Shown here piece after piece: positions 17,146 to 36,910 of a DNA stretch of 43,487 nt (positions are counted from its first letter, which is position 1; every line of letters begins with the position of its first letter). Origin of the DNA: a virus. The position numbers were made by a program, and so were the translations under genes. The notes beneath the pieces were generated by a model. That model saw nothing but the letters and a program-made list of their open reading frames with translations. It searched no databases and was not told the DNA's origin. Location of the stretch: the IMG/VR virus record IMGVR_UViG_3300045006_000068, positions 1-43,487 of that record; one strand, given 5' to 3'.

Positions 17146-17496
17146 TCAAAGAGGCTTCCCCTGGATGAACCAGTCGGAGAACTGCCGGGACAGTTCGGCC
17201 GCCACCTCCTCGGGCGTCTTCCTGGGGATGGCCGGAATGTCGATGATCCTGAAGAGTCGAAGGGCCGCCATGCGGGACCGCTCCCGGAGGCCAGTCGGGT
17301 CCTTCGACCGGGCCGCCGCCTGGAACGTCTCTTCGATGATACTGGCGACACCTTCCATCGGGGGCATGGTAGGGGCGGACCTGAGGGCCCCGAGCGCGTG
17401 AGCCACCTCATCTAGGCCGTCCGCATCGACGAAGCGGGACGACCTGACAAGGGCCCCGGCTATCCGCTCTCGCAGGGCGTCAGAAAGGATTATCAC
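17146..17496 (-). CDS. Hypothetical protein upstream of terminase
   Basis: A 116-residue largely helical protein starting at a GTG after AAAGGAGGAG. Its N-terminus (LSDALRERIAGALVRSSRF) and a later RERSRMAALRLFRII helix suggest a soluble helical protein. No family is recognised. It occupies the place of a small terminase subunit, but it lacks a clear DNA-binding motif and a better candidate lies at 21666-22094. Its 5' leader resembles that of the integron cassette gene at 17863, which is unusual. Confidence 0.6.
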   Translation of the reverse strand: MIILSDALRERIAGALVRSSRFVDADGLDEVAHALGALRSAPTMPPMEGVASIIEETFQAAARSKDPTGLRERSRMAALRLFRIIDIPAIPRKTPEEVAAELSRQFSDWFIQGKPL

Positions 17497-17509: not shown

Positions 17510-17565
17510 GCATGGCGACTTGGCCCGTGTCGGCAATCGATTTATTGATTGCCGCTAAAGGGTCT
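17510..17565 (-). promoter_or_regulatory. Structured leader upstream of the 17146-17496 gene
   Basis: On the minus strand, after the attC core, the leader reads CTTTAGCGGC, then an 8-bp stem (CGGCAATC with GATTGCCG), then GACACGGGCCAAGTCGCC, and then the ribosome site. The same pattern with a different stem sequence precedes the 69-residue cassette gene. Confidence 0.5.
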
Positions 17566-17627
17566 GCCTAACATTGAGTTAAGGTGCAACTTCGTCAGAA
17601 GTTGTCAGCTTGAACTCTGTGTTGGAT
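17566..17627 (-). other. Integron attC recombination site (first)
   Basis: On the minus strand the site starts ATCCAAC and ends GTTAGGC, matching the RYYYAAC and GTTRRRY cores. Between them GAGTTCAAG pairs with CTTAACTC leaving one unpaired base, the extrahelical base that fixes attC orientation. A second stem pairs GACAACTTC with GAAGTTGCA-type sequence. The 3' end of the 65-residue ORF lies inside it, as is normal for cassettes. The paired arms closely resemble those of classical attC sites such as aadA. Confidence 0.85.
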
Positions 17628-17776
17628 ATTGCCCGGCGCACTGGAACATTTAATGATGGGCTATAAAAACACTTTAAAAAATGATTACTAATTTTTGACC
17701 AAGTTTCACAATTATCATCTATCGTTTCGTCACCATCCATGAATTGTTCCCCATTTTCCAAAAGTCTGTATTTCAC
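17579..17776 (-). CDS. Cassette B protein, 65 residues
   Basis: A small acidic protein starting at a GTG after CGGAGGAG. The opening MKYRLLENGEQFMDGDE and the later VPVRR follow a pattern I associate with small hypothetical proteins of integron cassettes and phages (YRLL..GE...GDE...RR). The last 15 residues are encoded by the attC site. No function is assigned. Base composition is AT-rich compared with its neighbours, a sign of separate origin. Confidence 0.65.
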   Translation of the reverse strand: MKYRLLENGEQFMDGDETIDDNCETWSKISNHFLKCFYSPSLNVPVRRAISNTEFKLTTSDEVAP

Positions 17777-17777
17777 A

Positions 17778-17849
17778 ACTCCTCCGATAATTTGCCGGGC
17801 AATTTGGTCAGCAATCCGTGTAAGCTATAGCTTATGCGGTTGCTGATCC
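17778..17849 (-). promoter_or_regulatory. Hairpin leader of cassette B
   Basis: Directly after the attC core, GATCAGCAACCG pairs imperfectly with CGGATTGCTGACC around an inner palindrome (AAGCTATAGCTT). A CCGGC segment and the ribosome site follow. The layout parallels the other two leaders although the sequence differs. Confidence 0.45.
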
Positions 17850-17899
17850 ATCCAACATTGAGTTAAGGCGCTTTAGTCGCCTTGAACTCGTTGTTGGAT
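17850..17899 (-). other. Integron attC recombination site (second)
   Basis: A compact 50-bp attC: ATCCAAC, then GAGTTCAAGGCG pairing with CGCCTTAACTC (one extrahelical base), then GTTGGAT. It shares arms with the first attC but has a shorter central loop. The ORF at 17863 stops inside it. Confidence 0.88.
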
Positions 17900-18072
17900 G
17901 CCGACCGAATGCGTGGGACCCGCTCCGTGCAGTTCCACGCAACCCTTTGACACGGTTTTTGGTATTTAGAGCAGTGTAAATGTTTCTTTCCTTCATTTAG
18001 AGAAACAACACTTGAATAAATACACTTCTTGCATCTTCCTTTGTCTTCGGGGTTTCTCAATTTATTCGACAC
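17863..18072 (-). CDS. Cassette A protein, Cys-rich, 69 residues
   Basis: The preferred start is the GTG at 18072, six bases after AAGGAG. An upstream ATG at 18141 overlaps the recombination core and is unlikely. The protein is basic with a CKKC pair near residue 15 and further Cys/His (HLHCSKYQKPC, AWNC), so it may be a small zinc-binding protein. The C-terminal residues (NEFKATKAP) come from the attC site and resemble the tail of cassette B. Function unknown. Confidence 0.6.
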   Translation of the reverse strand: MSNKLRNPEDKGRCKKCIYSSVVSLNEGKKHLHCSKYQKPCQRVAWNCTERVPRIRSASNNEFKATKAP

Positions 18073-18139
18073 AAAAACTCCTTTCGGGCGGCTTGGCACG
18101 TGTCGGCTAAAATCTTTGATTTTGGCCGCTAAAGCGTCC
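18073..18139 (-). promoter_or_regulatory. Structured leader of cassette A
   Basis: It reads CTTTAGCGGC, then a stem of about 10 bp (CGGCCAAAATC with GATTTTAGCCG), then GACACGTGCCAAGCCGCC, then AAAGGAG. Compared with the leader at 17510-17565, the stem bases differ on both sides but pairing is kept. Confidence 0.5.
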
Positions 18140-18146
18140 ATCCAAC
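18140..18146 (-). other. Integron core site GTTGGAT, upstream boundary of the array
   Basis: On the minus strand GTTGGAT follows GTGTTACGCTGAACGGTC and TAAAGTAT. This upstream part has no attC palindrome. It resembles an attI-type or secondary insertion site, but this rests on a short match. Confidence 0.45.
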
Positions 18147-18173
18147 ATACTTTAGACCGTTCAGCGTAACACG

Positions 18174-24332: not shown

Positions 24333-24424
24333 TCAAGTCCGAACGTCCTAACCCGCCGCCTTCCTCGACGAAGAAGGCGAACCGCCGAAGCGGCACACTA
24401 CCAGACCGGCCCACCCGGCTTGAT

Positions 24425-24498
24425 TGGAGGGGGAGGATTTGAACCTCCGACTTCCAGCAGAAGAGGCTGGCGACATAACCAGGCTAGTCCACCCTCCT
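24425..24498 (-). tRNA. tRNA-like gene, anticodon loop reads CTCTTCT (probably Lys-CTT)
   Basis: On the minus strand a cloverleaf can be drawn: acceptor GGAGGG with CCCTCC, D stem GAC/GTC, anticodon stem CCAGC/GCTGG with loop CTCTTCT, and T arm GGAGG-TTCAAAT-CCTCC. The strict reading gives anticodon CTT, but position 37 would be C instead of a purine, and the acceptor is effectively 6 bp with a terminal A-A mismatch. No CCA is encoded after the discriminator. The fold is convincing; the amino-acid identity is not. Confidence 0.7.
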
Positions 24499-34406: not shown

Positions 34407-35963
34407 TTATTGGTAGGCGGCTTGGCCGCGTAGGTTCTCGTGGACGGTGGTCACCGCCGCCGGGGGGAGGACGAGGATCTTGTCTTCATCCTGTTCCAGG
34501 ATGGTTTTGACGGCCCGATAGGAAGCTTCCTCTCGTTCCAGCGCGAGCAGACAGGCCCGGTTGAGCCGGGCACTCTCCCACTTGCGTCCCAGGCCGATGA
34601 GGCCCAGGCAGGCTTTGAAGCCGTGCTCGGGGTACTCATAACGGTCCATGATCCGCTGACAAACTTGGGCAACGGAGGATCCCAACTCCTTTGCCCAGTT
34701 CAAGATACGACCAGGTGACCACTCGGCCACAAACTGATGGTGGTCGGGCATGTGCTCCTTCTGGGTCGACCATCCCCGGGTATGGGAGCGCAAGTGGAAG
34801 GCCTGCCGGAGGTTGTCGTGGTAGACCTCGACGGTCCGGCTCGTCCAGACCACAGTGACCTCTTGGCCCAACAGGCGCCAGGGCACGCTGTAGTAGTGCT
34901 CCACCTCGCCCTCCTTGAGACGGATGTGGTAGGTGTTGGCAACCTTCTGGAGCTTGTACTGACGGTACTCGAAGACTGTGGCCGGTAAGGGCTTGAGCAC
35001 CGGCCGGTCGACGCTCTTCCAGAGCTCTTCCCGGCTGACCGCCATCCTCTGGAACTTGCGGGCATTGTGGGCATCCAGGAGCATCCAAAGGGCCTGGTTG
35101 AGCTCCTCGAGGCTGCGGAACTTCCGGTTCCGCAAAGGGGCGAACAATCGGGTATAGAGGATTCTGACGGCGCCTTCGACCAAGGATTTATCCTTGGGCT
35201 TGTAGGGCCGAGCCGGAAGGATGACCGTCCCATAGTGGTCGGCAAAGTCGGTGAAGGTCCGATTGTTCACCGGCTCGTACTTGCTGGCGGTGGTCACGGC
35301 TCCCTTGTAGGCATCGGGCACCAGCCCGGCGGGGACTCCGCCGAAGTGCTCGAAGGAATGGAGGCATCCGGTGATCCAGTGGCGTTGCTCCTGGCTGGGG
35401 AAGGCCTCGGCGTAGGTGTACTGGCTGGCCCCCAAAATCGAGACGAAGAACTGGGGATGGGTCTCGATGCCGGTCTTGGGATCGGTGATGCACAGCGGCA
35501 ACTTCCCGGCCCAGTCGAAGTAGGCCAGCTCCCCGGCACGGTGCTCAAAGTGCAGGCTGAGGTTGTCCGGCTGGGCACCCTTCCACACCTGGTAGTGATG
35601 GCAGAAGCGGCTGTAGGTGTACCCGTCGGGATTCTTCTGGCGGTACTCGTTCCAGAGCACCTCCCTGGTGACCCCGACCTTCTTCAGTTCCTGGGCCATC
35701 TCGGGGAAGTACTCCATCGCCGCCAACAACCGGGGATCGGAGGTCCGGCCTCCCATGGTCAGGGCCGACATGGCATCGGAGTCCGATAGTCCCTTCAGGG
35801 TCTCGAGAGTCAGGCCGCTGCTCTTCCAGTTGAGCAGATATTGGGCCACGGTAGGCCGACTGATTCCGGTGAGTTTGCTGATCTGCCGGTCGCTCAGACC
35901 GTTGGTCTGGCTGAGTTCAATGATTCGTCGAATCTGGTGCATTGGTGTCCTCGTTTGAGCCAT
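34407..35963 (-). CDS. istA: IstA transposase
   Basis: 518 residues from MAQTRTPMHQ (35963). The N-terminal helix-turn-helix is NGLSDRQISKLTGISRPTVAQYL. The DDE catalytic core has ELAYFDWAGKLP (first Asp), GLVPDAYKGAV (second Asp) and KDKSLVEGAVRIL (Glu). A beta-barrel and a basic C-terminal region follow. Full length, no stop or frameshift, so the element may be active. Confidence 0.92.
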   Translation of the reverse strand: MAQTRTPMHQIRRIIELSQTNGLSDRQISKLTGISRPTVAQYLLNWKSSGLTLETLKGLSDSDAMSALTMGGRTSDPRLLAAMEYFPEMAQELKKVGVTREVLWNEYRQKNPDGYTYSRFCHHYQVWKGAQPDNLSLHFEHRAGELAYFDWAGKLPLCITDPKTGIETHPQFFVSILGASQYTYAEAFPSQEQRHWITGCLHSFEHFGGVPAGLVPDAYKGAVTTASKYEPVNNRTFTDFADHYGTVILPARPYKPKDKSLVEGAVRILYTRLFAPLRNRKFRSLEELNQALWMLLDAHNARKFQRMAVSREELWKSVDRPVLKPLPATVFEYRQYKLQKVANTYHIRLKEGEVEHYYSVPWRLLGQEVTVVWTSRTVEVYHDNLRQAFHLRSHTRGWSTQKEHMPDHHQFVAEWSPGRILNWAKELGSSVAQVCQRIMDRYEYPEHGFKACLGLIGLGRKWESARLNRACLLALEREEASYRAVKTILEQDEDKILVLPPAAVTTVHENLRGQAAYQ

Positions 35964-36159
35964 CCGCCCCCTCCTTGGGAGCCGACAGCATAGTTTGAGG
36001 AGCACACCGTTCAAAGCCCAGGAATTTTGACCAGAAATCGGGCTCCCAACGGGGCCTAATTCCTGGTCCGGTATGACCGTTCCTGCGGATGCCTGCCGGG
36101 TATTCCTGCCAATACGCCAAAAGTGGCAACCTTGGCCAGGAATTCTCCCGTCTCAGACC

Positions 36160-36211
36160 CCGCCAGGGTGGCAACCTTCGTCAGGAACGGGTGGCAGGCA
36201 TCGCCAGGAAT
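36160..36211. repeat. Right terminal repeat of the IS21 element
   Basis: Inverted partner of 33154-33205, with another internal partial copy near 36120-36150 (GGCAACCTTGGCCAGGAAT). Confidence 0.65.
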
Positions 36212-36910
36212 CTACACGTGAACCCGATCCCGTCCATGATGCCGTTCGCGGTGCGTCATCGGGAGCGGCAGGACTTCCGACCCGCCGAGGTCAGGCGGCT
36301 CTTGGACCGATCGACGATCCCGACAATCTGGGCGGACCCAACGGCTAGACAGGCCATCTACCGGGACGGATGGAGGCTCTACTCCATGAGCCTGCTACTC
36401 GCGGTCACTGGGGCACGGTGGAGCGCCGTTGCCGCCCTGGAGTCCGGAGACATCACCCAGGAGGCCGGGTACTACGTGGTGCGTCTGGACAAGGCCCTCG
36501 CCGAGATCCGGGGAGTCAAGCCGGGCACGAAGACGGGAAGGGGGACCCTAGTCCCGGTAGCGCGGGAGGTTCTCGACCAGGTCCTGCCGCATCTTCCGGA
36601 GTCTGGACCGCTGTTCCCGTCCTTCGGCCGACGGCACGGCCACCTTACCCACCACACAGCGATCAAGCACCTCAAGGCCGCGATGATCCGGGCCGGAATC
36701 AGTGAAAGGGCCCAGCGGGAACGTCTCCTGGGCTTCCACTCTTGGAAGCACACGTTCGTGACTAGGGCCCGGGCGGCTGGGCTGTCGGCCGAAGTCCGGA
36801 GCGCCTTTACGGAGCACCGGGACGAGCGAACCGCGGGGATCTACACCCACCTGGCGCCGATCGACCTGCTGGACGCTCTGCCGGTACAGAGGGCGATGCT
36901 CGGGGCCTAG
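36212..36910 (+). pseudogene. Tyrosine recombinase (integrase) fragment, catalytic domain only
   Basis: The plus-strand frame continues out of the IS end into VRHRERQDFRPAEVRRLLDR and a recombinase catalytic domain. Arg I is in TGARWSAVAALESGDI, the beta-hairpin Lys in KTGRGTLVPV, the box II His in HSWKHTF, a His in EHRDERTAG and the Tyr in IYTHL. Box II has Lys where Arg II (HxxR) is expected. The N-terminal core-binding and arm domains are missing, replaced by the IS21 end. About 232 residues could still be made from ATG at 36235, but activity is unlikely. Confidence 0.75.

Follow-up and report, generated by a model that had tools for sequence, protein, structure and literature searches.

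The window, a virus record of 43,487 nucleotides, encodes a terminase, a portal, a tape measure, and minor tail proteins, consistent with a siphovirus. Its minus strand harbors two integron gene cassettes, each opened by a leader hairpin and closed by an attC site. An attI-like site precedes the first cassette, and a third leader stands directly behind the last attC, ahead of a phage-like gene of 116 residues upstream of the terminase (Table 1). A tRNA gene is found elsewhere in the window. The first-pass annotation had recorded the two attC sites and the ORFs ending inside them, but overlooked the attI-like site, the leaders, and the third leader behind the last attC.

Table 1. Features of the cassette array and other elements of the window, in window coordinates.
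Feature	Position	Strand	Remarks
attI-like site	18140-18172	-	GTTACGCTGAACGGTCTAAAGTAT-G^TTGGAT, cut between G18146 and T18145
Cassette 1 (290 bp)	17856-18145	-	G^TT borders 18146/18145 and 17856/17855
Leader of cassette 1	18092-18139	-	R2 62.9 bits over 18092-18146 (in training set)
Cassette 1 ORF, 69 aa, Cys-rich	17863-18072	-	GTG at 18072, stop inside attC
attC of cassette 1	17850-17899	-	ATCCAACAACGAGTTCAAGGCGACTAAAGCGCCTTAACTCAATGTTGGAT; R1 59.7 bits
Cassette 2 (284 bp)	17572-17855	-	G^TT borders 17856/17855 and 17572/17571
Leader of cassette 2	17803-17849	-	R2 36.3 bits over 17803-17856 (in training set); RNA fold z -5.0
Cassette 2 ORF, 65 aa	17579-17776	-	GTG start, stop inside attC
attC of cassette 2	17566-17627	-	ATCCAACACAGAGTTCAAGC...CACCTTAACTCAATGTTAGGC; R1 53.6 bits
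Third leader	17519-17565	-	R2 52.9 bits over 17519-17572 (in training set); RNA fold z -4.1
116-aa gene	17146-17496	-	Behind third leader, upstream of terminase; third-position G+C 0.80
tRNA gene	24424-24498	-	Rfam 49.2 bits
Transposase	34407-36014	-	phrog_1157
Tyrosine recombinase	36089-36910	+	PF00589 42.8 bits; phrog_1 integrase

The two attC sites lie at the coordinates first given, share one orientation, and possess R'', L'', L', and R' boxes with a single extrahelical base each; the covariance search proposed at that time recovers both. The E-values of model R1, rough as for all three covariance models (R1-R3), are 2.5e-12 for the attC of cassette 1 and 7.8e-11 for that of cassette 2, which lies outside the training set. 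Setting aside the opposite strand of these sites, the R1 runner-up in the window reaches 10.8 bits. A strict detector, comprising RYYYAAC, an arm with a 1-nt bulge, and GTTRRRY, returns two matches over the 43 kb window, which are the same two sites, and none in six dinucleotide shuffles. Folding of the bottom-strand DNA gives z-scores of -7.6 and -4.1. The two attC sites are real and stand far above chance.

The cassette units have a G+C content of 42.8% versus 61.4% for the phage, in agreement with the AT-rich units of about 285-290 bp noted earlier. The GTTGGAT start box of cassette 1 and the R'' box of the same cassette, ATCCAAC, are exact reverse complements, and the start and R'' boxes of cassette 2 are also complementary. 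Of 26 consecutive cases, 19 display such exact complementarity, compared to a mean of 2.5 and at most 8 after shuffling. Both ORFs end inside their attC, as had been stated, with stops at 17863 and 17579. A longer frame of 92 residues in cassette 1 was rejected; it crosses the leader, and the 69-residue frame behind a ribosome-binding site was preferred. Searches of Pfam, PHROGs, and NCBIfam returned no family for the ORF of cassette 1 and no convincing one for that of cassette 2. In viral contigs, matches to ORF 1 are confined to the leader and attC parts and ORF 2 has no relatives; no match was found in the plasmids searched, and Rfam at E <= 1 returned nothing on the attC sites or leaders.

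The 116-residue gene has a third-position G+C similar to that of the terminase (0.78) and the portal (0.83), while the cassette ORFs have values of 0.48 and 0.32. It is probably either native to the phage or a cassette that became fixed. The third leader may mark a cassette that was fixed after loss of its attC, or it may be a leader stranded before a native gene. Other arrays also finish with a leader and no further detected attC (e.g., G002).

The absence of an integron integrase, also reported initially, is borne out by a search of the window with TIGR02249. The sole tyrosine recombinase scores 18.3 bits against a cut-off of 265 and, judging from its family matches, is a phage-type integrase and not IntI. 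A transposase gene is located beside it. The locus thus has the composition of a CALIN, with at least two attC sites carrying the four boxes and an extrahelical base, same-orientation ORFs between G^TT borders, complementary start and R'' boxes, and no integron integrase nearby. The phage's own tyrosine recombinase could in principle move the cassettes. This is extremely improbable, as the enzyme falls far under the IntI cut-off and PF00589 is missing in 22 of 24 phage records, many of them fragments. TIGR02249 likewise has no match in eight array-bearing phage records. Because no IntI was found in the phage records tested, we infer that the integrase acts in trans.

The array is not unique to this phage. 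A blastn search matched one isolate, Tetrasphaera phage TJE1, whose array has been published as an attC cluster without an integrase and whose attC sites are recombined by the class 1 IntI1 in E. coli (Qi et al. 2023, PMC9892861). Like the window, TJE1 carries an integrase-less cassette array with a nearly identical leader and attC, but it is a different phage with different cargo. The attC of cassette 1 equals that of TJE1 save for the last four bases, which are part of the next cassette. The gene between leader and attC is unrelated, with 109 matches in an alignment compared to a shuffled mean of 102.8 and a maximum of 111.

Pattern scans of IMG/VR identified roughly 35 contigs with like arrays. 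The phages are unrelated, as seen in their portals (three PHROG families), tail sheath, tape measures, and terminases, and the array-bearing stretches read range from 34 to 62% G+C. Two attC-pattern matches, L045 and L046, lack the structure of a cassette and were taken as chance. Across 33 phage attC sites, 99.8% of the proposed stem cells are standard pairs, 8 of 14 pairs change on both sides, and stem covariation is 0.477 versus 0.146. Cargo in other phages includes Mom (E 7.5e-69), N6/N4 DNA methylases, Dam, and DUF551; Mom-family proteins (PF25680) are encoded at L099 2816-3520 and L089 141-593. With such DNA-modifying enzymes among the cargo, the cassettes could plausibly be of benefit in countering restriction. 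Related methylases of low identity are also present in the chromosomal arrays.

Each window cassette opens with a two-tier leader, in which GG and a bulged A precede the lower stem, an internal loop separates this stem from the apical one, and CC(A)A closes the structure. In cassette 1, the lower tier is GG-bulged A-CGC, followed by a TTTAG/GACAC internal loop and the apical stem, while the leader of cassette 2 has the form GG-A-TCAGCAA...TTGCTGA-CC. Covariation in a MAFFT alignment of 24 leaders is 0.498 versus 0.184 when shuffled. For 73 distinct copies, it is 0.530 versus 0.161 shuffled and at most 0.078 slid, in a model alignment that leans towards structure. GU and AC mismatches number 27 and 35, respectively, a split that favors neither RNA nor DNA as the form in which the leader acts. 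The leader may be an mRNA hairpin that lies between attC and the ribosome-binding site and serves expression.

The leader appears to be a phage trait. The chromosomal arrays of spirochaetes examined, 391 kb with approximately 298 attC sites, yielded no copy of full length, and the best R2 matches there are fragments of 24-31 nt. An exact-pattern scan of approximately 85,000 genomes, covering the commonest leader type only, gave four matches and one true copy. The latter lies on contig LVBK01000060 of a Spirochaetales MAG together with a phage portal gene; intI of the same MAG sits on a different contig. Leader-pattern matches L049-L051 have no attC, read like ordinary coding sequence, and were taken as chance.

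The start of a phage array, i.e., its first cassette, has no attC in front. Aligned at this point, the phage arrays share TTANNC.G....GNNTAA, followed by 4-7 nt and then G^TT. Model R3 was built from 16 phage array starts that include TJE1 and exclude the window. Its sole significant match in the window is the array start (27.6 bits, rough E 0.002), and it also matches three more untrained array starts (L114, L093, and L080). The attI-like site is found at about 20 array starts of unrelated phages, and the copy in the window, with its poorer dyad, is weaker than most. The TJE1 start site, GTTAGACCGATCGGTCCAAC-CAT-GTTGGAT, is read here as an attI of the same type, whereas PMC9892861 describes this position as a terminator in which two GTTRRRY motifs are inverted. 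With respect to a complete integron, the locus has an attI at the array start, assigned by the sequence model only, and lacks intI. The attI of the window may be active.

The phage contigs L104 and G006 (L077, L080) have two attI-type sites per contig, and in L104, the 60-nt upstream flank of the attI-type site is present twice in identical form. In L107 (about 1233-2445), attC-like sites occur on both strands, resembling two array ends that face each other. A search for phages with an empty attI, using one attI form, returned only contigs that bear arrays. For an empty-site comparison, homologues of the genes flanking the array were absent from all terminase relatives fetched.

Among the closest known systems are the chromosomal integrons of spirochaetes. 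The phage-built attC model matched 48 of 393 Spirochaetota genomes (up to 70.8 bits) and, weakly, 3 of 399 Burkholderiales genomes (39 bits or less), in a bacterial sample made up of these two groups only. Some of the Spirochaetota matches are long chromosomal arrays adjoining intI (up to 508 bits). In one spirochaete chromosomal integron (G395:C3, about 1716000-1881800), attC sites are spread over about 160 kb beside intI. R3 matches in spirochaete genomes adjoin intI ahead of the first cassette. The best is G043 (25.7 bits, rough E 0.0045, dyad TTATACGGTGGATTCCGTATAA), followed by the intI-linked G314 (23.2 bits, rough E 0.016), with weak matches of 14.7-19.4 bits at the equivalent position in G228, G361, G395, and G321.

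Spirochaete chromosomal integrons (Treponema and others, PMC3607928) appear to share their attC type with the window, and those outside Treponema also share its attI type. In Treponema-like genomes, the attI differs, reading GTCGAAGGAATG^TT. A further likeness is a short bulged-A hairpin at the cassette starts. However, spirochaete integrons have intI and long arrays, and no two-tier leader. The short hairpin opens the spirochaete chromosomal cassettes in L151-L170, with the bulged A at +10 after GTT in 97%; strict hairpins in the +10-A register number 76 of 176 versus about 20 in shuffled sequence.

These likenesses allow for a source in chromosomal integrons of unsampled bacteria in which all cassettes have two-tier leaders, with the phages acting as mere carriers. 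In favor of such a source are the apparent spirochaete type of both attC and attI and the shorter hairpin of chromosomal cassettes, with its bulged A at the same place. It is nevertheless quite unlikely, given that the genome scan, for the one leader type covered, encountered the leader only on the portal-gene contig, and that G043, whose attI is nearest to the phage form, begins its array with the short hairpin.

In the literature, phage attC clusters are read as chance captures (PMC9892861). Here, an attI end and two host-integron cassettes would have entered the phage via illegitimate recombination, leaving an array that is now inert. The small size of the array, with just two cassettes, a leader without attC, and no integrase, is in keeping with this proposal. 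On the other hand, the attI-type site and the leader recur across many unrelated phages, the leader form is missing from the chromosomal arrays examined, intI was not captured alongside, and complementarity between start and R'' boxes persists. We regard chance capture as unlikely; the observations agree better with a pool of cassettes that phages carry and that has a docking site of its own. The same evidence bears on the first-pass proposal that the phage acquired cassettes from a host integron in trans. Movement in trans is a reasonable reading, given integron-type cassettes and a phage that encodes no integron integrase. An origin in a host integron fits poorly, considering the absence of the leader from the chromosomal arrays examined, the leader and attC shared with TJE1, and the recurrence of the attI-like site in unrelated phages.

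The array is probably, albeit with appreciable reservation, an integrase-less integron platform composed of an attI, two cassettes, and their leaders, drawing on a shared pool with IntI supplied in trans. The phage would retain an attI of the kind adjoining intI in some spirochaetes, and its two cassettes would each combine a spirochaete-type attC with a structured leader at the head. An integron integrase from the infected host or a co-resident element would exchange cassettes at G^TT, and cassette circles would insert either at the attI of the phage or at an attC. In this manner, phages may tap a common pool of small genes, frequently ones for DNA modification that guard against restriction. 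Mobilization by the host IntI would be expected, and the pool itself may be phage-specific. A broader proposal, that phages possess an integron system of their own in which an integrase-less attI is kept and a leader-marked pool rich in anti-restriction genes is traded via the host integrase during infection, is tentative and falls slightly short of an even chance. The reported isolation of TJE1 from an actinobacterium and not a spirochaete counts against the platform as outlined here.

Several elements have precedents. Clusters of attC in virulent phages, TJE1 among them, have already been published (PMC9892861). The prophage integrons of Vibrio anguillarum and Shewanella also place integron parts, some with attI, in phage genomes, but these either retain intI or represent fragments of the host's own integron (PMC9892861). 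A text search of PMC9892861 found no mention of "leader" or "attI-like" and no link to spirochaetes. The attI conserved across phages, the phage-type leader, and the connection to spirochaetes appear to be new.

Phage attC clusters known before looked like accidental captures. If the conserved attI and the phage-type leader are what they seem, phages maintain integron platforms and swap genes, including those for protection from restriction, via the host integrase. Phages without shared homology would then have a concrete means of exchanging genes, and the use of host integrases in trans would be testable in a standard attC × attI assay.
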